Shown here: piece after piece, positions 9,490 through 48,961 of the stretch | Layout of the letters: every line of letters begins with the position of its first letter | Numbering within the stretch: position 1 is the first letter of the stretch | Source: Sphingomonas sanxanigenens DSM 19645 = NX02 | GTDB taxonomy: Bacteria; Pseudomonadota; Alphaproteobacteria; Sphingomonadales; Sphingomonadaceae | Assembly (NCBI RefSeq): GCF_000512205.2 | Contig: NZ_CP006644.1 | Location: 1,606,520-1,670,519, forward strand | Length of the DNA: 64,000 nt | Direction: 5' to 3' | Notes under the pieces: generated by a model | Told to the model about the DNA's origin: nothing | The model's database searches: none | What the model saw: the letters and a program-made list of their open reading frames with translations, nothing else | Translations under genes and position numbers: made by a program

Positions 9490-10263
9490 TCAGATGCCGT
9501 AGCCACCCGCCACGGCAAGTTGTTGTCCGGTGGTGTAGCCGGCGCGGTTCGAGGCGAGAAAGGAGACGGCGTGGCCGATCTCTTCCGCCTGGCCCCAGCG
9601 GCCGAGCGGAAGCTGTGCCTTCACCTCCGCCACCCACTTGTCGTCGAACTGGCCCTGCGCCAGCAGTTCATGGAACATGCCGGCGTCGATCACGCCGACC
9701 AGCACCGTGTTGGCGCGAATGCCGTAGCTGCCTTCCTCGCGCGCGATGCCGCGCACGAGCGACTCGTTGGCAGCCTTGGGCGCGACCGACAGCCCGTCCC
9801 GCGGCGGCCAGGCGAGATCGCCCGCCGAGCCGAGATGGACGAAGGAGCCGCCGCCCTGCTCGCGGAAATGCGGGATCAGCGCCTGGGTGGCGGCAAAGAA
9901 GCCATGGACCTCGACGTCGATCGCGCGCTTCCATTTTTCGAGAGGCGTCTGCGAGAGATAGAGCTGGTCGACCAGCGGCCCCGCCGCCCACACCATCGTG
10001 TGGATGCGGTCATGCGCCGCGACCGCGGCGTCGCGCGCGGCATCGATCGTTGCGGGATCGGTCGCATCGACCGCGTGCAGCGAGACGCTGCGGCCCAAGC
10101 CGCGCAGTTCATCGGCGATGGCTTCGGCGGCGTCGCGCTTGGAACGGAAGCACAGGGCGATGTCGCTGCCGTCCCGCGCCAGCGCACGCGCCGCAGCCGC
10201 ACCGAGACCGCCGGTGCCGCCCATCACCATGGCGGCGCCCTGGGGGAAATTCGTTTCCGTCAT
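9490..10263 (-). CDS. SDR family protein (E) lacking the catalytic Tyr
   Basis: SDR-fold protein of 257 aa with an intact nucleotide loop (GGTGGLGAAAA, from residue 15) and a WAAG variant of NNAG. Ser146 and Lys163 sit in the canonical positions, but the Tyr expected at 159 is Ser (GLSVAPKAA), with 13- and 4-residue spacings otherwise exact. The C-terminus is AVAGGYGI. ATG at 10263 has GGAGAGGAT upstream. It is probably either an altered-mechanism reductase or a non-reductive binding/isomerase protein. It heads the leftward unit and is divergent from SDR F. Confidence 0.85.
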   Translation of the reverse strand: MTETNFPQGAAMVMGGTGGLGAAAARALARDGSDIALCFRSKRDAAEAIADELRGLGRSVSLHAVDATDPATIDAARDAAVAAHDRIHTMVWAAGPLVDQLYLSQTPLEKWKRAIDVEVHGFFAATQALIPHFREQGGGSFVHLGSAGDLAWPPRDGLSVAPKAANESLVRGIAREEGSYGIRANTVLVGVIDAGMFHELLAQGQFDDKWVAEVKAQLPLGRWGQAEEIGHAVSFLASNRAGYTTGQQLAVAGGYGI

Positions 10264-10354
10264 GCCTGATCCTCTCCGGCTGGCGTCCGCTTCGCATTAT
10301 GGCGGACTGCTCGTTTCGGCTCGTTAAATTGCAGAATGATGATGGCAAATCAAC

Positions 10355-10397
10355 ACGCAAAGCTTGACATATTGCAGTGATATGCCGAGTCTTGCGT
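10355..10397. promoter_or_regulatory. Nested 43-bp dyad in divergent promoter (candidate operator)
   Basis: Between SDR E (start 10263) and SDR F (start 10436) lies ACGCAA-N7-CATAT-N7-ATATG-N7-TTGCGT. Both the outer 6-bp and inner 5-bp arms are perfect and all three spacers are 7 nt. TTGACA at 10365 could be a -35 element. Such symmetry in a divergent promoter suggests binding of a dimer or tetramer of a regulator. Confidence 0.55.
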
Positions 10398-10435
10398 AGC
10401 AGAGCCGGTGTCAGCCGGCCGACAGGAGGATGCGG

Positions 10436-11227
10436 ATGGGACGACTCGCCGGCAAGGTAGCGATCATCAGTGGCGCGGCACAGGGGATGGGCGCGGCAAC
10501 CGCGCGACTCTTCGCTTCGGAAGGCGCGAAAGTGGTGCTGGGCGACGTTCTGGAGGAGAAGGGTCGCGTGGTCGCCGCGGAGATCGGCGACGCCGCGTCC
10601 TTCCAGAAGCTGGACGTGCGCGAGGAGGCGGATTGGGCTGCGATCGTGGCGCATGCCGGAGAGCGGTTCGGCAAGCTCGACATCCTCGTCAACAACGCCG
10701 CGGTGACCCATTTCGGCGCCGCCGAGGAATTGCGCAAGGCGGATGTCGAGCGCGTGCTGGGGATCAACCTGATCGGCACGATGATGGGGGTGAAGCATGC
10801 GGTGCCGGCGCTCAAGGCGAACGGCAAGGGCGTGATCGTCAACATCTCTTCGGTGGATGGCCTGCGCGGCTGCAACGGGCTCGTCGCCTATACCGCCAGC
10901 AAATGGGCGGTGCGCGGCATCAGCAAATCCTACGCCTATGAATTCGGGCCGTTCGGTATCCGCGTCGTCTCGATCCATCCCGGCGGGGTGAATACGGAGA
11001 TGGGCAATCCCGCGGGCGAAGCTGCCGAGGCGGTCAATGCGCGCCACTTCCGCCGCGTGCCGCTGCAGCGCATCGGCGAGCCCGAGGAGATCGCGCGGGC
11101 GACCCTGTTCGTGTGCAGCGACGAGGCGAGCTACATCAGCGGCGCCGAGATCGCGGTCGATGGCGGCTGGACGGCCGGCCATTACGAGCCGGCGCTGCCC
11201 GGTTGCGCACCCAGCCTGCTGGCCTGA
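10436..11227 (+). CDS. SDR family oxidoreductase (F), hydroxysteroid-dehydrogenase-like
   Basis: SDR of 263 aa with SGAAQGMGAA, LVNNAAV, NISSVDGL and YTASK, and a VDGGWTAGH tail. The overall form resembles the 3-alpha/20-beta-hydroxysteroid dehydrogenase branch, but this is a family resemblance only and not proof of a steroid substrate. ATG at 10436 is preferred over 10430 because AGGAGG lies 6 nt upstream of it. It is the first gene of the long rightward unit, 3 nt ahead of the next SDR. Confidence 0.9.
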   Translation: MGRLAGKVAIISGAAQGMGAATARLFASEGAKVVLGDVLEEKGRVVAAEIGDAASFQKLDVREEADWAAIVAHAGERFGKLDILVNNAAVTHFGAAEELRKADVERVLGINLIGTMMGVKHAVPALKANGKGVIVNISSVDGLRGCNGLVAYTASKWAVRGISKSYAYEFGPFGIRVVSIHPGGVNTEMGNPAGEAAEAVNARHFRRVPLQRIGEPEEIARATLFVCSDEASYISGAEIAVDGGWTAGHYEPALPGCAPSLLA

Positions 11228-11230
11228 GCG

Positions 11231-11992
11231 ATGGGGGCGCTCGACGGCAAGGTGGCCTTGGTCACGGGGGCGGGCCAGGGCGTCGGCCGCGGCATCGCGC
11301 TTGCGATGGCCACGGCTGGCGCCCGGGTCGCGGTGGTCGGCCGCACGCAGGCCAAGGTGGAGAGCGTCGCCGCCGAGATCGCCAGTGCTGGCGGGCAGGC
11401 GGAGGCGTTCGCCTGCGACGTGAAGGACGCGGCGTCGATCGCCGGGCTGGTCGACGCGGTGGCGGCGACCTTCGGTAGCATCGATATCCTCGTCAACAAT
11501 GCGCAGGAGGTGCCGCTCGGCCCGCTCACCGACGTGACCGACGAGGCGTTCCAGGCCGGCTTCGCCTCGGGCCCGCTCGCCAGCTTCCGGCTGATGAAGG
11601 CGTGCCATCCGCACCTCGCCCGCGCCGCGGGCGGCGTGATCGTGAACCTCGCCACCTCGGCGGCGCGGCGGTGGGACATGAGCGGCTATGGCGCCTATGC
11701 GGCGGTCAAGGAGGCGACGCGCGTGCTGACCCGCGCCGCCGCCGCCGAATGGGGCCCGGACGGCATCCGCGCGCTGACGATCGCGCCGCATGCCGATTCG
11801 CCGGGGCTCAAGGCATGGATCGAGGCGCGGCCGGATGAAGCGGAGGCGTTTTTCCGGACGATCCCGCTACGCAGGGTGGGGCGCTGCGAGGAGGATATCG
11901 GGCGTGCGGTCGCGGCGCTGTGCGGGCCGGAGTTCGGCTACCTGACGGGGGCGACGGTGCCGCTGGATGGCGGTCAGGCGAATTTCGACTGA
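11231..11992 (+). CDS. SDR family oxidoreductase (G)
   Basis: SDR of 253 aa with TGAGQGVGRG, LVNNAQE (NNAG altered), NLATSAA and YAAVK. The tail is LDGGQANFD. It follows SDR F after 3 nt, so they are surely co-transcribed. The region after the Tyr lacks the usual PG substrate-loop motif (APHADSPG), so the substrate pocket probably differs from SDR F. The substrate is unknown. Confidence 0.89.
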   Translation: MGALDGKVALVTGAGQGVGRGIALAMATAGARVAVVGRTQAKVESVAAEIASAGGQAEAFACDVKDAASIAGLVDAVAATFGSIDILVNNAQEVPLGPLTDVTDEAFQAGFASGPLASFRLMKACHPHLARAAGGVIVNLATSAARRWDMSGYGAYAAVKEATRVLTRAAAAEWGPDGIRALTIAPHADSPGLKAWIEARPDEAEAFFRTIPLRRVGRCEEDIGRAVAALCGPEFGYLTGATVPLDGGQANFD

Positions 11993-12152
11993 TGGGCGGG
12001 GGGATGGTCACAGGCTGGCGAGCAAGCGCACGCTTCTCCTCCTCGAGCGACGTTCGCGCAGGAGATTTTCAGCCGCGCGCAATCCAATGTTTGAATTCGG
12101 TCGCGCCCACCCGCCCTGCTGAAGCGGACGGGCTGAGAAGGGAGCCATGCGA

Positions 12153-13394
12153 ATGAGCATCGCCTTCACGCCGGTCAAAGTCGGGCCGGTCACGCTTCCA
12201 AACCGCTTCATCCGCTCCGGCGCGAACGAGATGATGACGCGCAACTCGGTGCCCACCCGCGCACTGCTCGAATTCCACCGCCGCCTTGCGGCCGGCGGTG
12301 TCGGCATGACCACGCTCGCCTATATCGCGGTCTCGCCCGACGGGCGCACCTTCGCCGGCCAGGGCGTGATGAACGCGACCAGCGTGCCGCACTATCGCGC
12401 GATCGCCGATGCGGTGCATGCCGAAGGCGCGCTGATCTCGGCGCAGATCACCCATGGCGGCAGCTTCGTGCAGCACAAGGAATTGTCGACGCCGCGGGCG
12501 ATGTCGTCCTCGGGCGGCATCGACAAGATGGGCGTGATGATGGGGCGCTTTTTCCAGCGTCAGATGAACCGCGCGGACATGGATCAGGTGCGCGACGAGT
12601 TCGTTGCGGCGGCGCGGCTGGCGGCGGAGGCCGGGTTCGATGCGGTCGAACTGCATATGGGCCATGGCTATCTGCTCAACCAATATATCTCGCCGCTCTC
12701 CAACAAGCGGCGCGACGAATATGGCGGCACCGCCGAGAAGCGCGTGCGCTTCCCGGCCGAGGTGCTGGCGGCGGTGAAATATGCCGTGGGCGATCGCATC
12801 GCGGTGCTTGCCAAGATGAACCTCTACGATGGCGCCAAGGGCGGTGCCACGGTGGAGGACGGCATCGTTACCGCGCGCGCGCTGGAGGCGGCTGGCGCCG
12901 ACATGCTGGTGCTCTCGGGCGGGCGCAACATCGAATCCAGCTATGTGATGTTTTCCAGCCCGCTGCCCTATGACGATCTGGCGGCGATGCAGCCGGGGTT
13001 GCTCGCCAAGCTGCAGTTCAAGCTGCTCAAGATGGCGACGCCCAAGACGGTGCGCTTCTCCGAACTCTACTTCCTCGAAGCGGCGCGGCAGGTGCGCGCG
13101 GCGGTGACATGCGGTCTCGGCTACCTGGGGGGCGTGCTTTCGCTGCCGGCGGCCGAACTGGCGCTGTCGGAAGGGTTCGAGGCGGTGGTGATGGCGCGCT
13201 CGCTGGTCCATGATCCGGATCTGGTTGCGCGCTGGCGCGAGAACGCCGGGCACCGTTCGGGCTGCACCGCATGCAACCGCTGCGTCGCGCTGATGTATGG
13301 CCCGTCGGGCACGCACTGCCCGGTGACGGCGAATGAGATCGACCCAAAACTCAACAGGATATGGGCGGGAGAGGAGATAGCTGATGCTGCTTAA
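12153..13394 (+). CDS. NADH:flavin oxidoreductase, Old Yellow Enzyme type
   Basis: FMN-binding TIM barrel of 413 aa, expected to reduce an activated C=C bond or oxidise a ring. PNRFIRSGANE is at the N-terminus, ELHMGHGYLLNQYISP holds the substrate-binding His region, and the phosphate-binding region is near GFEAVVMARSLVHDP. Unlike simple OYEs, the C-terminus keeps four Cys (C371, C374, C377, C389; CxxCxxC-N11-C) like the 4Fe-4S site of 2,4-dienoyl-CoA reductases, but the second FAD/NAD(P) domain of those enzymes is absent. ATG at 12153 has AGGGAG 8 nt upstream; 12147 is too close. It overlaps the next SDR by 11 nt. Confidence 0.9.
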   Translation: MSIAFTPVKVGPVTLPNRFIRSGANEMMTRNSVPTRALLEFHRRLAAGGVGMTTLAYIAVSPDGRTFAGQGVMNATSVPHYRAIADAVHAEGALISAQITHGGSFVQHKELSTPRAMSSSGGIDKMGVMMGRFFQRQMNRADMDQVRDEFVAAARLAAEAGFDAVELHMGHGYLLNQYISPLSNKRRDEYGGTAEKRVRFPAEVLAAVKYAVGDRIAVLAKMNLYDGAKGGATVEDGIVTARALEAAGADMLVLSGGRNIESSYVMFSSPLPYDDLAAMQPGLLAKLQFKLLKMATPKTVRFSELYFLEAARQVRAAVTCGLGYLGGVLSLPAAELALSEGFEAVVMARSLVHDPDLVARWRENAGHRSGCTACNRCVALMYGPSGTHCPVTANEIDPKLNRIWAGEEIADAA

Positions 13395-41165: not shown

Positions 41166-43169
41166 TTATTCCGGCACGCGCGGCCCGTCCTTCACCGAAT
41201 TCCACACATCGAACCGAAAGGTCCGCGGCGGGCGTTCGGGGCGGACCTCTAAGATCAAGGTCTCGCGCGCGGACGAACCCTGGGGTCGTGCCACCCGCAC
41301 GGTCGCGGTGTGCATCCCGGGTGCCAATGTCGCGGGCAGAGCGAAGCGCCAAAGGTGGGCGCTATGATCCGCCACCGACCCCTGCGGCTGCGGGGGGGCG
41401 GGCGGGGTGCGGGTCTGGCGGCCCTGGATGAAGCCCTGCGCCTCGGCATCGCCCGAACCGCTCTCGAACGCGGTTCGCGCCACGCTCAACTGGCGCTGCA
41501 GTGCGAACGGATCGGCATGTTCGGGGCCGTTGCGGCTGGGCTCGCCACGCGCCTCCTGCGTGTGCGTCATCGCCACGGGCGCCGTGCCGTCGATCGAGAC
41601 AGTGACCTGCGTCGCGCTGTCGCCCAGCCAGACATTGGCGGTCAGCCAGCTTCCTGCGCCCAGGTCCGCCGGGGTGAGCAGTTTCTCGTCGGGCAGATCC
41701 TGCACGCTCAGCGGCGGCACGCGGCCGCGCGTCGCCGGATCGGCGTTGCGCCAGTCGAGCAGCTTCGCTGCCCAGCCGCGGAAGGCCGGCGTGCTGACCG
41801 ATAGCCACATCGCCCGGTCCGCGGGCTCGCCGGTCGCGCGATAGTCGAGATCATAGTCGGTGCCGCTGACCCGCATGTCGACATAGCCGCGCGGCGAGCC
41901 ATCGCCCTGCAGGCTCATCGGAATACCCTCGACATCGAAGTCTCCGCCCCACCAGTCGCCCGCCACCGCGCCCGCGACGACATGGCGGAAGGGAATGCTG
42001 GTCACGCCCACCGCGTCCTTCCACCCCTCATAGGAATCGCCCGGCGCCAGATTTTCCAGCGTGTGACTGTGGCCGGACAGGTCGAGCGCCTTGCGCCCCT
42101 CGAGCAGGGCATAGACCTCCGGCGCATTGTCGGTCTGGTGCGCCCATTCCTTGCGATTGTCGAAGCCGACCAGCGGGATGTGGTGGCCGAGCACGATCAG
42201 CTTCGCCGGATCGGTGTTGGCGATCAGATTCTTGAGGAACGCCATCTGATCGTCGGTGAAGCGGCCGTTGTAGCTTTTCTGCGGATATTCGACGCAGAAG
42301 GGACGGGCACCCTTGCGATTGTCCGCCTCGCCACACGGATAGACGACATTGTCGAGGCCGACGAACAGCACATTGCCCATCTCGAACGCGTAGGTGGCGG
42401 GGCCATAGGTACGCCGCCAGGTGTCCGAAGCGTCGGCGTCGCGATCGGCGTCCGAATCATAGTCGTGATTGCCCTGCACCCACCATTGCGGGATCCTGAG
42501 CGCCCCCAGCACCTCTTCCAGCCGCGGGATCAGCCCGAGGTCGTCGCCCACGAGATCGCCCAGCGCGAACAGGCAGGCGGGCGGGGGACCCTTGCGGTCG
42601 GCGAGTTCGCGCACGATCGAGTCGCGCGCATAGCCGATCTCGTCACCCGAATAGACCTGCACGTCGCCCAGCACCGCGCAGTTGAAGTCCGGCCCGACCG
42701 TGCTCGGCGCGAGCGGGAAGTTGATCGCCGCGGGCAACGGCCCGGTATCCGGCAGCCCGCCGAAGCGCAGCTTGCGCGGCGAGCCGCCAAGTTTGTGCTC
42801 ATAGGCGAAGCGGGGGACGAAGTTGCGATCGGTCGGCACGCGCCAGCCGCTCGGCTGGACCACCGACACGCTCATATCCCTGCGCGCGGGCAGCACATAG
42901 CGGCCGTCAGCGCCGGTCTTCACCACCTCGCGCCCGTTGGAGACGTTGACCCCGGCGAGGCCGTGCTCGCCGGCGTCGAGCCGGCCGTTGCGGTTGGCGT
43001 CATCGAACACGATGCCGCGCACGGTCTTCGCGTCGCGCGCCTTGCCCTTCACCACTTCGATGTCGGCGAACCAGGGCGCATCCGCCGGCGCCCCCGCCCG
43101 GGCGATGCCGCCGGCCAGCGCGGCGGCGCACGCCGCCGTCAGCCACAGGGACTGCGAAACCTTGGTCAT
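41166..43169 (-). CDS. Secreted calcineurin-like metallophosphoesterase
   Basis: Protein of 667 aa with a signal peptide (MTKVSQSLWLTAACAAALAGGIARA). An N-terminal Ig-like domain with VFDDANRNGRLDAGEHGLAGVNV precedes the catalytic core: LGDVQVYSGDE, ALGDLVGDD, QGNHDYD, VLGHHIPL and SGHSHT give the binuclear metal site, except that the usual DxH of block 1 is DxQ. A beta-rich C-terminal domain follows (MetallophosN/C arrangement). ATG at 43169 has GGGAGGG upstream. Divergent from a TonB receptor; phosphate ester scavenging is likely. Confidence 0.9.
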   Translation of the reverse strand: MTKVSQSLWLTAACAAALAGGIARAGAPADAPWFADIEVVKGKARDAKTVRGIVFDDANRNGRLDAGEHGLAGVNVSNGREVVKTGADGRYVLPARRDMSVSVVQPSGWRVPTDRNFVPRFAYEHKLGGSPRKLRFGGLPDTGPLPAAINFPLAPSTVGPDFNCAVLGDVQVYSGDEIGYARDSIVRELADRKGPPPACLFALGDLVGDDLGLIPRLEEVLGALRIPQWWVQGNHDYDSDADRDADASDTWRRTYGPATYAFEMGNVLFVGLDNVVYPCGEADNRKGARPFCVEYPQKSYNGRFTDDQMAFLKNLIANTDPAKLIVLGHHIPLVGFDNRKEWAHQTDNAPEVYALLEGRKALDLSGHSHTLENLAPGDSYEGWKDAVGVTSIPFRHVVAGAVAGDWWGGDFDVEGIPMSLQGDGSPRGYVDMRVSGTDYDLDYRATGEPADRAMWLSVSTPAFRGWAAKLLDWRNADPATRGRVPPLSVQDLPDEKLLTPADLGAGSWLTANVWLGDSATQVTVSIDGTAPVAMTHTQEARGEPSRNGPEHADPFALQRQLSVARTAFESGSGDAEAQGFIQGRQTRTPPAPPQPQGSVADHSAHLWRFALPATLAPGMHTATVRVARPQGSSARETLILEVRPERPPRTFRFDVWNSVKDGPRVPE

Positions 43170-43267
43170 AAAGCCCTCCCGCATCGAACCGCGCGCCGGC
43201 GCCCGGTTGGCGGCCGCACGCAATTCAACAAAAAATCCACAAACCATTCGCCACATGGCGAGCGTTG

Positions 43268-43285
43268 ATGACAGATTGATGTAAG
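43268..43285 (-). promoter_or_regulatory. Pho-box-like repeat
   Basis: On the minus strand CTTACAT-CAAT-CTGTCAT: two 7-mers 4 nt apart, 5/7 and 7/7 to the CTGTCAT half-site of PhoB boxes. It lies 99 nt before the phosphoesterase start. The 385-bp divergent region (43170-43554) is AT-rich and holds no gene. Confidence 0.5.
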
Positions 43286-43439
43286 CTGGGATCCGACCAT
43301 GAATCTGCATGAGCCGCCGCATTGTCGAGAATATGGTGGCGTAACCGCCCGTATTGCCCGGATCTCTGGGGCTATCCAACAGTATCAGCATTAACGAGAT
43401 GTTGTATCATTCAGTTCGAATTTATGCTGGTTTGTTGTT

Positions 43440-43554: not shown

Positions 43555-46500
43555 GTGACGAGCCTTTCGCGAACCGCGCGGCGTGCCGCGTTCATCCGTG
43601 CTGCGCTGCTGCTCGGCGCCGCGCTGCCCGCAACCGTCGCGCTCGCGCCGGCCGCGCATGCGCAGGATTATACCAACATCACCGCTTCCGGCCGCGTGAC
43701 CAACGAAAACGGCGCGCCGATCGCCGGCGCGACGGTGACGATCAAATCGTCCGACCGCGGCATCGAGCGCACGACGACGACCAACGACGCCGGCTCCTAC
43801 AGCTTCGACCAGCTCACCCCGGGCGCCTATGATTTCAGCGTCAGCGCCACCGGCTTCGCTGCCTATACCGAACAGCGCGTGCTACTGACCGCAGCCAATG
43901 GCGGCGGCAACAGCTTCCGCCTCGTGCCCGACCAGCGCGACGGCGACATCGTCGTGCAGGGCCAGCGCATCGTCACTGCCGACTTCAACGATGCGACCAC
44001 CGGCGCGGTGATCGAGCTGGCGGATATCGACAAGCGTCTTCCCGTCGCGCGTACCTTGCAGGATGTGGTGATGCTGGCGCCGGGCGTGACCCGCGGGTCC
44101 AGCACCAACGGCACCTTCGCCAACCAGGTGACGATCAACGGCTCCACCTTCACCGAAAACGCCTATTTCGTGAACGGCCTCGCCATCACCAACTTCCGCA
44201 TCGGCCTGGCGCCGGTGGAGGTGCCCTATGACTTCTACGAGACGATCGAGGTCAAGACCGGCGGCTATCCGGCAGAATTCGGCCGTGCCACCGGCGGCGT
44301 GATCAACGCCGTCACCAAATCCGGTTCCAACGACTATCATGCCAGCGTGCTCGGCACGTGGGAGCCCAACGGCCTGCGTTCCAACTCGCCCGGCACCGTC
44401 GAGCTCGACAATGAGGATGCCACCCGCACCCGGCGCGAACTGGTGCTGCAGGCGAGCGGCCCGATCATCAAGGACCATCTGTTCGTCTACGGCCTCTACA
44501 ATTTCCGCGAGTTCGAGAGCTTCACGCCGGATGCCGACCAGGACAATGCGACCCGCGTCCGCAACACCAGCCCGTTCTGGGGCGTGAAGGTCGACGGCTA
44601 TGTCACCGACGACCAGCACCTCGAATTCACCTATTTCGACAGCAGCAACGACACCCACACCCGCAGCCTGGTCTATGATCGCGCGACGGGCGAGAAGGGC
44701 GCCGAGACCGGCGGCACCGACCAGCGCGCCGGCGGCGAGAATTTCGTCGGCCGCTACACCGGCACCTTCGCGCCCTGGCTCACCGTTTCCGCCGCCTATG
44801 GCCAGAACAAGCTGCGCGACGGCACCCTGCCGCTCGACATCACCAATGAACGCGTCCTCGACTATCGCGAGAATCCGGCGGGCACCGACATCGGCCTCAA
44901 CCGCATCACCGATGCCTATGGCCTGACCAACGACAAGCGTGAATTCTACCGCGCCGATGTCGATTTCAACTTCGAGATCTTCGGCGCGCACCACCTGCGC
45001 GTGGGCTATGATCATGAAACCGACACGTCCAGCCAGATCCACCAGACGATGGGTGGCGGCTTCTACAAGATCTTCACCGCCGGCACGCAGGATTCCGCCG
45101 ACCTCGGCATCCCGCTGGGCACCGACTATTACACCACCCGCGTGTATCGCAACAATGGCGAGACCACGGTCAAGAACGAAGCCTTCTATATCGAGGATGA
45201 CTGGTCGCTGTTCGACGACCGTGTGAAGTTGCAGCTCGGGCTGCGCAACGACCGGTTCAGCAACCAGGGGGTCGACGGCAAATCCTATTACAAGTCCGGC
45301 AACCAGTGGGCGCCGCGCCTCGGCGCCTCGTTCGACGTGTTCGGCGATCGCCGCACGAAGCTCTACGGCTTCTTCGGCAGATATTTCCTGCCGATGTCGG
45401 GCGATATCAACCTGAACGTCGCCGGCGGCACCGTCACCTACACGCGCTACAACCTGCTCAACGGCATCAACAGCGCCGATGGCACGCCGAATGCCGGCGC
45501 GCCGATCCTCGGCGGCCTTGGCCTCACCGCCTGCCCCGATACCGGCGTCGCCAACTGCATCGTCAGCCGGGACGGCAGCACCGCCGATTACTCCTCGTCG
45601 ATCGCGCACAACCTCAAGCCGCAATCGATCGACGAGTTCATCTTCGGCGGCGAGCATCGGCTCGGCGACGGCATCAAGCTGGGCCTCTATTACACCCATC
45701 GCAGCCTCAACGACGCGATCGAGGATATCTCGGCGGATTATGGCGCGCGCGCCTATTGCGTCCGCGCTGGGTTCAGCGAGGCTGATTGCACCGCCCAATT
45801 CCCCGGCGGCTCGATCTGGCCGATCGCCAATCCCGGGCGTGACACGGTGATCAACATCACCTTGCCGGACGGCACCAACGAAGTCGCCACCTTGCGCGCC
45901 GAGGATCTGCGTTACCCGAAGCCCAAGCGCAATTTCGACTCCGTCACGCTCACCTTCGATCGCGCGTTCGACGGCGTGTGGGGGCTCTCCGGCTCCTACA
46001 CCTGGGCGATGAACAAGGGCAATTATGAGGGCGGCGTGCGCTCGGAGAACGGCCAGCTCGCGGTCAACCGCTCGGCCGACTTCGACTCGCCCGGCTTCCT
46101 CAGCGGCGCCTATGGCTATCTGCCCAACGATCGCCGCCACACGCTCAAGCTCTATGGCAGCTATCGACCGCTGAGCTTCCTCGATCTCGGCGCCAACCTG
46201 CTGGTGCAGTCACCGAAGCATTACAGCTGCATCGGCACCGTGCCGTTCGACGTGGACCCGACCGCCTACGGCTATCATGGCTATAGCTATTATTGCGGCG
46301 GCGAGGTCGTGCCACGCGGCTCCGCCTTCAAGGGCGACTGGCTGAAGTCGATCGACGTCAGCGCGGTGGTCAACATGCCCAAGACCTGGGGTATCGACGC
46401 CTCGCTGCGCTTCGACGTGTTCAACCTGTTCAACAGCAAGTCGGTGACCGCCTTCAACGAAGCCGGCGAACTTGGCAACGGCACCCCGAACCCGCTCTAT

Positions 46501-46563
46501 CGCACCCCGCAGGCGTATCAGACGCCCCGCTACGTGCGCATGCAGTTCCGCGTCGGGTTCTAA
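43555..46563 (+). CDS. TonB-dependent receptor with carboxypeptidase-like regulatory domain
   Basis: Outer-membrane receptor of 1002 aa. The signal peptide ends near AAHAQ (about residue 37). A carboxypeptidase-regulatory-like domain (GRVTNENGAPIAGATVTIKSS, about 45-115) precedes the plug (DGDIVVQGQR, then VKTGGYPAEFGRATGGVINAVTKSG) and barrel, ending MQFRVGF. This is the Oar/SusC-like type. The start is GTG at 43555 with GGGGGA 6 nt upstream. Divergent from the phosphoesterase; it likely imports the product or substrate of that enzyme. Confidence 0.92.
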   Translation: MTSLSRTARRAAFIRAALLLGAALPATVALAPAAHAQDYTNITASGRVTNENGAPIAGATVTIKSSDRGIERTTTTNDAGSYSFDQLTPGAYDFSVSATGFAAYTEQRVLLTAANGGGNSFRLVPDQRDGDIVVQGQRIVTADFNDATTGAVIELADIDKRLPVARTLQDVVMLAPGVTRGSSTNGTFANQVTINGSTFTENAYFVNGLAITNFRIGLAPVEVPYDFYETIEVKTGGYPAEFGRATGGVINAVTKSGSNDYHASVLGTWEPNGLRSNSPGTVELDNEDATRTRRELVLQASGPIIKDHLFVYGLYNFREFESFTPDADQDNATRVRNTSPFWGVKVDGYVTDDQHLEFTYFDSSNDTHTRSLVYDRATGEKGAETGGTDQRAGGENFVGRYTGTFAPWLTVSAAYGQNKLRDGTLPLDITNERVLDYRENPAGTDIGLNRITDAYGLTNDKREFYRADVDFNFEIFGAHHLRVGYDHETDTSSQIHQTMGGGFYKIFTAGTQDSADLGIPLGTDYYTTRVYRNNGETTVKNEAFYIEDDWSLFDDRVKLQLGLRNDRFSNQGVDGKSYYKSGNQWAPRLGASFDVFGDRRTKLYGFFGRYFLPMSGDINLNVAGGTVTYTRYNLLNGINSADGTPNAGAPILGGLGLTACPDTGVANCIVSRDGSTADYSSSIAHNLKPQSIDEFIFGGEHRLGDGIKLGLYYTHRSLNDAIEDISADYGARAYCVRAGFSEADCTAQFPGGSIWPIANPGRDTVINITLPDGTNEVATLRAEDLRYPKPKRNFDSVTLTFDRAFDGVWGLSGSYTWAMNKGNYEGGVRSENGQLAVNRSADFDSPGFLSGAYGYLPNDRRHTLKLYGSYRPLSFLDLGANLLVQSPKHYSCIGTVPFDVDPTAYGYHGYSYYCGGEVVPRGSAFKGDWLKSIDVSAVVNMPKTWGIDASLRFDVFNLFNSKSVTAFNEAGELGNGTPNPLYRTPQAYQTPRYVRMQFRVGF

Positions 46564-46579
46564 AGGACGGAGCATGTTT

Positions 46580-46604
46580 CCTCCCCGAGCTCTGCTCGGG
46601 GAGG
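46580..46604 (+). terminator. Hairpin after the TonB receptor gene
   Basis: CCTCCCCGAGC-TCT-GCTCGGGGAGG, perfect 11-bp stem with a 3-nt loop, 16 nt after the stop codon. A weak A-rich tract follows instead of T; a factor-aided terminator is possible. Confidence 0.6.
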
Positions 46605-46706
46605 ACGAAAGGAGCCACCGCGGGTATCTGCCGATCCGCCCGCAATTGACCATTCCACCACACACAGGGCACCCTCAGCCCTCACCGCCGCCCAAGGAGA
46701 TCCACC

Positions 46707-47462
46707 ATTTTCAAACGATCCGAGCGTCAGCGCGAAATCGTCGCGCGGTTGCGCGGGGGTGTGGCGTTGTCGGTGAACGGCCTCGCCGCCGACCTCAACG
46801 TGTCCGACGAAACGATCCGCCGCGAACTGCGCATCCTCGAGGAACAGGGGGCGATCATCCGCGAACATGGCGGTGCGCGCCTCGCCGCTCCCGTCTACGA
46901 AGGCCCGCTCGTCCAGCGGATGGAGGAGCATGCCGACGCCAAGCTGCGCATCGCCCGCGCCGCCGCCGAGTTCGTGCCCGACGGCGCGATCCTCTTCATC
47001 GATAGCGGCACCACCTCCTGCTATGTCGCGCGGCAGCTCGTCGACCGGCGGTCGCTGACGGTGATCACCAATTCGCTGCAGGTGGCGAACGACCTCGGCA
47101 GCATCAACAACAACCGCCTGTTCCTCGCCGCCGGGCAAATGGATCCGGATTATCGCGCCTTCTCCGATCACACCGCGCAAGCCTATGTCGCCGGCTTCAC
47201 GCCGCATCTGGCGATATTGTCGGTCGGCGCGATCAGCCTCGATCGCGGGCTGATGGATTATCATCCGGGCGAGGCCGCGATGAGCCGCATCGCCTACGCC
47301 ACGTCGGAAAAGGTGTTGCTCGGCGCCGATTCCTCGAAATTCGGCCGCTACGGCCTGATGCACACCGCCGCGCTCACCGATGTCGACCTGCTGGTTACCG
47401 AGGCGCCGCTCGACGAGGAATTCGCCCGCGCCTTCGACCATGCCGAGGTGGTGATCGCCTGA
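46707..47462 (+). CDS. DeoR/GlpR family regulator with apparent ATT start codon
   Basis: Regulator of 251 aa. The HTH (ALSVNGLAADLNVSDETIRREL) is followed by the EEQGAIIREHGGARL wing and a sugar-phosphate sensor domain (FIDSGTTSCYVARQL; SVGAISLDRGLMDY; LLGADSSKFG). The family usually begins KxERxxxIVxxL; that stretch is encoded upstream (FKRSERQREIVARL) but with no ATG, GTG or TTG. ATT at 46707 sits 7 nt after a perfect AAGGAG. A TTG at 46749 would cut helix 1. The end overlaps the convergent transporter gene by 68 bp. Confidence 0.85.
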   Translation: MFKRSERQREIVARLRGGVALSVNGLAADLNVSDETIRRELRILEEQGAIIREHGGARLAAPVYEGPLVQRMEEHADAKLRIARAAAEFVPDGAILFIDSGTTSCYVARQLVDRRSLTVITNSLQVANDLGSINNNRLFLAAGQMDPDYRAFSDHTAQAYVAGFTPHLAILSVGAISLDRGLMDYHPGEAAMSRIAYATSEKVLLGADSSKFGRYGLMHTAALTDVDLLVTEAPLDEEFARAFDHAEVVIA

Positions 47463-48786
47463 CCCACGCACCGGCGCCCGCCGCTGCCAGCGCCACGCCG
47501 GCGCCGGCCGCGGCGAGCAGCGCGTGCAGCGCCCAGAATTGCGCGGGCGCCATCCGCTCGTAGAAGGCGCCGCCGAAGCCGACCCACAAATTGGCGAAGA
47601 AGCCGTGGAGGTAGAAGATGCCCACCCAGAGCCCGGTGAAGCGCGCCGGCGCGGAGGCAGTGACGAGGCTGAGCCCCGCCGGCCAGACGAGGACGATCGC
47701 AACGTCGATCAGCAGCAGATAGGCGAGCGGCGCCACGATCGGCACCGCGCCGGTGCCGATCGTGGCCGATGCCGCCAGCACCAGATTGCCGAGCGCGCAG
47801 GCCGCGCAACCCAATGCGATCTGCCCCAATGCGCCCAGCGCCAGCCCGCGGCGGGCCAGCGCCTTGAGCCCGATCTGCGTCAACGGCACGAGCGCGAGCG
47901 TGAACAGCCCGTCGAGCGAGAGCAGCCAGGGCACCGGCAGCCGCCAGCCGAACGCCTCCAGCGCCACCTGCGTCCGCGCCCAGACCAGGAACATGTTGCC
48001 GATCTGTTCATAGGCACCAAAGCACAGGAACACTGCGAGCAGCGCCGCGACGACGCGCGCCAGGTCTCCCGCGCCCGCAGGGTCGCGCGCGTCGGCGGGA
48101 GAGGGGGCGGGTGACCGCTTCGCCGGCGCCGCCACCGCGATCCGCCGGGCCGCCAGATGATAGCCTGCCAGCCCGATCGAGACCGCAACCGCCGCCGCCA
48201 TCATGCTCCAGCGCCAGCCGCCCACCACCGCGAGCGCACCGCAGACGAAGGGGCCGCAGATCACGCCGGCGTTGAGGACGCCCAGATAGCAGGCAAAGCC
48301 GCGCCTTCGCGCCGCATCGTCGTTGAACAAGGTGCCGACGACGGTCGAGAGATTGCCCTTCAGCGTCCCCGCGCCTGTTGCGAACAATATGAGCCCCGGC
48401 AGGAAGAACAGCCGCGTCGGCATCAGCAACAGCCCCGCGACCATCGCCCCGCCGCCGAGATAGACGGCGCCCCGCGGCCCCGCGACCCGATCCCCCAGCA
48501 ACCCGCCCAGCGGCACCGAAAGATACAGCAAGGCGTTGGCCATGCCATAGATCTGCGAAGCGAAGCCGGCGGCCGAAAGCGGCCCGAACCAACCCTCCAG
48601 CGCCCGCTCCGCCGCGCCGGACCCGAACACGTCTGCCCGCCCCACGACATGATCGATCAGCACGAGGGTGAGCATCGACTTCACCCCGGCGAGGGCAAAC
48701 CGCTCCCAGAACTCCGTCCCCGCGAGCGCCAGAAACCCCTCGGGCAGCCCGAACCGCCGCCTCACCGACTTCATCACGCCCGTCAT
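47395..48786 (-). CDS. POT-like MFS transporter
   Basis: Membrane protein of 463 aa, about 12 helices. The ExxERF motif (EFWERFALAG) and GTLKGNLSTVVGTLF replace the stricter POT sequences, so it is a divergent member of the peptide-transporter family. The C-terminal tail is Arg/Pro-rich (WVRRSPPRHGRRRGRIPRR) and is encoded opposite the last codons of the DeoR gene. ATG at 48786 is followed by a second Met at 48774. The transported compound is unknown. Confidence 0.87.
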   Translation of the reverse strand: MTGVMKSVRRRFGLPEGFLALAGTEFWERFALAGVKSMLTLVLIDHVVGRADVFGSGAAERALEGWFGPLSAAGFASQIYGMANALLYLSVPLGGLLGDRVAGPRGAVYLGGGAMVAGLLLMPTRLFFLPGLILFATGAGTLKGNLSTVVGTLFNDDAARRRGFACYLGVLNAGVICGPFVCGALAVVGGWRWSMMAAAVAVSIGLAGYHLAARRIAVAAPAKRSPAPSPADARDPAGAGDLARVVAALLAVFLCFGAYEQIGNMFLVWARTQVALEAFGWRLPVPWLLSLDGLFTLALVPLTQIGLKALARRGLALGALGQIALGCAACALGNLVLAASATIGTGAVPIVAPLAYLLLIDVAIVLVWPAGLSLVTASAPARFTGLWVGIFYLHGFFANLWVGFGGAFYERMAPAQFWALHALLAAAGAGVALAAAGAGAWVRRSPPRHGRRRGRIPRRAAPR

Positions 48787-48961
48787 TCGTTCCGCCTCGC
48801 CGCCGACGGGGCTTATCCGCGGCATTGGTGGCAGGGCGATGACAGGGGATGGGCGCGCACCGGCGGGGCCGGCCAAATCCCTTGGGTGGCTTTCGATGTG
48901 TTGCCGGTCGTCAGGGGCGATGCTTCTCCATCGAGGAATGGACCCGCAGCTTGTTCAACCG

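Follow-up and report, generated by a model that had tools for sequence, protein, structure and literature searches.

Comparative evidence for a conserved AUH start codon in a DeoR-family regulator gene of sphingomonads

The AUU codon at position 46707 of a 64,000-nucleotide stretch of the Sphingomonas sanxanigenens DSM 19645 = NX02 genome (hereafter the window, to which all positions refer) is, as judged from sequence comparison, the real start of a gene for a DeoR/GlpR-family transcriptional regulator, and it belongs to a weak type of start that is conserved among sphingomonads. The same comparison establishes the position of the start, its conservation, the accompanying Shine-Dalgarno (SD) motif and the synteny of the gene.

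The regulator gene (46707..47462, forward strand) lies in a frame that opens after a TGA at 46647-46649 and closes with the stop codon at 47460-47462. Counted from the non-canonical ATT at 46707-46709, which is in frame with the rest, it has 251 codons, corresponding to a protein of 251 aa. The earlier note on this DNA had proposed an ATT start and an N-terminus encoded without ATG, GTG or TTG, and the window frame indeed contains none of these, nor CTG, from the upstream stop to TTG 46749. The codons after ATT are TTC AAA CGA TCC GAG CGT CAG CGC GAA ATC GTC GCG CGG TTG, the last of them at 46749. The perfect AAGGAG that the note had placed ahead of the start is found at 46694..46699 on the same strand, separated from ATT by a 7-nt spacer (46700-46706). 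The protein exceeds the curated Pfam cut-offs for HTH_DeoR (residues 7-60, 54.8 bits, cut-off 21) and DeoRC (residues 75-232, 146.6 bits, cut-off 31.8), domains that it shares with the DeoR/GlpR/AgaR repressors. Its matches to the NCBIfam equivalogs GlpR, AgaR, SrlR and UlaR all stayed below the respective cut-off, the best reaching 155.9 bits against a required 300.

Orthologues were sought in overlapping genome sets, namely 59 relatives, 397 members of the family, 295 from a single genus, and two further genera with 10 and 3 genomes; Sphingomonas gei, a Sphingomonas MAG and Sphingosinithalassobacter portus were scanned in addition. The gene is uncommon: 7 of the 397 family genomes matched at E <=1e-50. 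Matches were most frequent in the genus represented by 295 genomes, 54 of which matched at E <=1e-60, 25 of those with at least 68% identity. Matches below 65% identity were excluded, leaving 31 genes including that of the window. Three of these, L012, L013 and L014, were same-species duplicates of L021, L022 and L023; counting each pair as one gene gave 28 non-redundant orthologues, all with at least 68% identity. For 24 lower-identity matches in the richest genus without a locus of their own, the codon was read only for L018. A plasmid search returned a single distant match (50.6% identity) on a Sphingomonas parapaucimobilis plasmid.

In the 28 orthologues, window included, the codon aligned to 46707 was ATA in 12, ATT in 7, ATC in 5 and ATG in 4 cases. 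The first two bases were thus AT in 28/28, while the third was A 12, T 7, C 5 and G 4 times. For comparison, the commonest pair of first two bases reached 10/28 at codon -1 and 14/28 at codon 2, and the most fixed of the six codons upstream of the start 17/28. Codon 2 varied (Glu, Leu, Gln, Asp, His, Phe), and from codon 3 onward the genes showed protein constraint with synonymous change, with Lys in 27/28 and then, at codon 4, Arg in 28/28 by means of six different codons. The invariance of AT excludes a coincidental ATH (ATA, ATT or ATC) behind AAGGAG, which would have been conceivable from one genome alone, and the ATG found in four orthologues fixes the start position at this codon. An orthologue check for ATG thus finds it in 4/28 genes and ATA, ATT or ATC in 24/28, upholding both the start position and its conservation. 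Since the genes are related, the 24 ATH orthologues do not represent 24 independent events.

Codon usage was also informative. Inside the 28 genes, isoleucine was encoded by ATC 385, ATT 42 and ATA 12 times, whereas at codon 1 the numbers were 5, 7 and 12, so that ATA made up 12 of 24 Ile-type codons at the start versus 12 of 439 internal ones (Fisher p 3e-11, a value that is indicative only because the 28 rows are related). In L010, a TAG lies two codons upstream of the ATT, leaving just ATC-ATT before the conserved protein. An internal isoleucine codon of a longer protein was considered and ruled out by codon usage, by the TAG in L010 and by ATG in 4/28 genes.

A GGAG-type motif precedes the codon in all 24 ATH orthologues, so that AUH together with an SD at working distance is kept across species in 24/28 genes. 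Calculated with an assumed anti-SD sequence, not one taken from the genome, duplex energies ranged from -8.3 to -15.1 kcal/mol in the ATH orthologues, with a mean of -10.7 kcal/mol in the 24 ATH versus -8.9 kcal/mol in the four ATG genes. Further upstream, ATTGACC (46645..46651, forward strand, about 60 nt before the start) is a putative -35-like promoter element. TTGAC followed by C, G or A was found 58-64 nt before the start codon in 11/28 orthologues, window included, and was absent from this interval in the other 17; a clear -10 element was not found upstream of the 28 genes.

The gene neighbourhood is largely conserved. Upstream of the regulator gene and on the same strand lies a TonB-dependent receptor gene (43555..46563, CarboxypepD_reg and Plug domains, GTG start), downstream and convergent an MFS/POT-like transporter gene (47395..48876, reverse strand), and divergent from the receptor gene a calcineurin-like phosphoesterase gene (41166-43391). 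Among the 20 longer loci examined, 18 have the receptor gene immediately before the regulator gene and in the same direction; in L065 it lies farther off, and in L067 none was found. An MFS relative is convergent downstream in 17 of the 20; L066 has it in another orientation, L067 at a different place, and in L049 none was found. The phosphoesterase recurred in L049-L053, and a search of the other 15 loci did not find it. Judging from adjacency, the regulator may act on the receptor gene, its conserved upstream neighbour and candidate target, and on the MFS gene. The sensor domain of DeoR regulators usually binds phosphorylated sugars, which makes a phosphorylated nutrient a fair guess for the ligand. 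In L055, an ORF beside the MFS gene (10249-12390) resembles, by eye, a secreted phospholipase C; together with the phosphoesterase of the window, it is a hint that the substrate may be phosphorylated or derived from phospholipid.

Two further features of this region were noted. The palindromic stretch CCTCCCCGAGCTCTGCTCGGGGAGG at 46577-46605, 3' of the receptor gene, matches 19 other places in the genome with 84-100% identity and looks like a dispersed terminator-like or REP-like repeat. The convergent MFS frame overlaps the 3' end of the deoR gene by 68 bases (47395-47462), and MFS relatives mostly align only to residue ~451-465 of 493, suggesting that the C-terminus of the MFS protein in the window may be altered.

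How such a start might work can be outlined from what is known of initiation. Initiator tRNA very probably decodes AUU 46707 as methionine behind the strong SD, and the sphingomonad orthologue group would keep the start as AUH, with the first two bases fixed and the third free, but usually not G. According to the excerpted text of PMC10158994, initiation factor IF3 tolerates only Watson-Crick pairs at the first two codon bases and is graded at the third, and a higher IF3 level disfavours the AUU/CAU pair; the fixed AT and free third base fit the tolerance at the three bases. AUH starts are weak and discriminated against by ribosome and IF3; here, strong SD pairing would rescue enough initiation. 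Most likely, the weak start keeps a DeoR-type repressor at a low level, so that the neighbouring uptake genes, for the TonB receptor and the MFS transporter, could be easily induced, and repressor synthesis would become sensitive to IF3 activity. We infer the low yield, the dependence on IF3, the regulatory purpose and the identity of the regulated genes from the type of start and its setting. The conservation of so rare and weak a start suggests that the cell makes little regulator on purpose, and likeness to published weak starts points to a repressor held low; by the same analogy, the conserved AUH start is presumably IF3-sensitive. We hold this explanation as a whole, from the AUU start to the IF3-sensitive low repressor level, with moderate confidence.

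The history of the codon bears on the chief alternative, namely that translation does start at AUH, which would be no more than a tolerated relic, with little need for repressor and no control through IF3 or protein level in use. In a protein tree that comprised all 28 orthologues plus three outgroup rows and left out codons 1 and 2, L042 and the outgroup, all with ATG, fell outside a clade of the other 27 (support 99/97). The fewest changes required on this tree were 3 for ATH versus ATG and 12 for the exact codon, counts that are approximate because L041 and L010 sit on long branches and support is weak at many inner ones. A single origin of ATH with two or more later returns to ATG (L041; L016 with L034) would fit the tree, which does not prove the direction of change. 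These apparent returns speak for a relic, and ATG in at least two lineages indicates that the weak start is not indispensable. Under weak selection, inheritance could preserve ATH even if it brought no regulatory advantage. Against a relic, SD pairing is still strong, and of the minimum of 12 codon changes that the tree requires, most stayed within ATH; moreover, AUH starts cut yield in published cases (PMC13009471, in excerpt). We regard a relic as possible but doubtful, and continue to prefer a weak start that holds the repressor low.

Other alternatives concern the place of the start. Translation could begin at a TTG or CTG at codon 2, or at an upstream in-frame ATG where there is one, with the ATH codon a bystander. 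No in-frame ATG, GTG, TTG or CTG occurs from the upstream stop to codon 12 in 4 of the 24 ATH genes (window, L015, L040, L010); the remaining 20 have an ATG at -12 nt (10 genes), TTG or CTG at codon 2 (5 genes), or only candidates farther upstream (5 genes), and the first two of these groups favour the idea. However, the window, whose codon 2 is TTC, and eight further ATH genes have neither a codon-2 TTG/CTG nor an ATG at -12, and a bystander would not be expected to keep AT in 28/28 orthologues. The ATG at -12 also overlaps GGAGG, and its upstream pairing is weaker: in the ten genes, the duplex with the anti-SD was -0.3 to -7.4 kcal/mol for this ATG and -9.7 to -10.7 kcal/mol for the ATH codon. 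A bystander role of the ATH codon is thus improbable. In the ten genes themselves (L026-L031, L033, L037-L039), the ATG lies within the SD (ATGGAGG), four codons ahead of ATH, and is a possible alternative or dual start.

Initiation at TTG 46749 (46749..46751, forward strand), which would yield a protein without the first 14 residues, has in its favour that no conventional start codon comes earlier in the frame. Yet the codon is conserved only as leucine (TTG 6, CTG 20, CTA 2; Leu in 28/28), the preceding codons 3-14 are conserved as protein with synonymous change, and the bases before it in the window contain no evident SD motif. The start would also truncate HTH_DeoR, which begins at residue 7: from TTG, codon 15, the first eight domain positions would be lost; the earlier note had named the first helix of the DNA-binding domain as the part removed. 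We judge the TTG to be an internal leucine codon and consider initiation there very improbable. Least credible of all is a sequencing or assembly error for ATG, a view with next to no probability and nothing found in its favour: the only second copy compared is the window's own assembly (GCF_000512205.2), identical and no independent check, but ATA, ATT or ATC occur at this codon in separate assemblies of other species (24/28 orthologues, window included), so error is not the explanation.

Control genes place the AUH start of the regulator in context. In 20/20 loci, the start codon of the neighbouring TonB-receptor gene is ATG or GTG (window and 19 others; L012-L014, where the flank ends short of the gene start, and L067, without a match, are omitted), the ATG of L065 being five codons ahead of the aligned start. 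A paralogue clade of about 50% identity had ATG in 6/6 genes read, and the MFS gene aligns too poorly at the N-terminus to serve as a start control. By contrast with these genes, infC of the same family has ATA in 26, ATC in 4 and an ATT-ATC pair in one of 31 loci (L048:1207, L069-L098), behind GGAG at a spacing of 8 nt in 30 and of 5 or 8 nt in one. The 31 loci were read from 39 matches, nine of which gave no new locus, the window genome's own one (L048) being read among them. Sphingomonad infC, the gene that the earlier note had named as the analogy, thus has ATA/ATC-type starts in 31/31 loci, one of them ambiguous (ATT-ATC), and such starts appear normal for IF3 in this group. If infC were annotated from an ATG farther downstream, the predicted IF3 would be too short.

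Retention of a non-canonical start across species is known for few bacterial genes, and genes for transcription regulators are very scarce among them. Gene finders restricted to ATG, GTG and TTG would cut the DeoR protein inside its DNA-binding domain or shift its start. The 24 AUH and four AUG natural versions, in nearly the same gene setting, make the retention of weak starts directly testable. More speculatively, and with rather low probability, sphingomonads may have a small IF3-controlled gene set beyond infC, in which DeoR synthesis would, by way of the AUH start, follow IF3 availability and the TonB-receptor and MFS genes would be derepressed at a high IF3-to-ribosome ratio; if true, translation-initiation fidelity would be wired into nutrient choice.

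Several known systems resemble the one described here. In E. coli, infC starts with ATT and is autoregulated through IF3 itself. Also in E. coli, pcnB, a gene of which the cell needs little product, has an AUU start as in the window, but this product is not a DNA-binding regulator. The DeoR gene and infC have in common an AUH start behind an SD; the infC product, however, is the self-regulating IF3, and the DeoR gene product a transcription regulator. The open-licence literature searched yielded no DeoR-family case, nor any sphingomonad case besides infC, and PMC11497404 contains no mention of AUU, AUC, infC or pcnB. Outside E. coli, infC starts with ATC in Streptomyces (PMC5472188, in excerpt) and with AUA in S. 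aureus (PMC13009471, in excerpt). The Streptomyces gene sigR resembles the DeoR gene in encoding a transcription factor whose non-canonical start is retained within a single bacterial group; its start is GTC, not ATH, its product is a sigma factor, and repression of this start by IF3 and the resulting low level were demonstrated experimentally, whereas for the DeoR gene the low level is deduced (excerpts of PMC5472188). In S. aureus reporters, yields from non-canonical starts were about 10% of the AUG yield when the medium was poor, and ccpN reached up to 30% in rich medium (excerpts of PMC13009471). The AUA-started ccpN of S. aureus and B. subtilis, whose product CcpN represses carbon metabolism, is, like the DeoR gene, a repressor gene that keeps its non-canonical start behind a strong SD; it differs in belonging to another family and phylum and in being backed by ribosome profiling and reporters, the DeoR start by sequence comparison (same excerpts). 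Conserved non-canonical starts are thus already known from infC, sigR (GTC) and ccpN (AUA), and the AUH start identified here by comparison adds one on a DeoR regulator.
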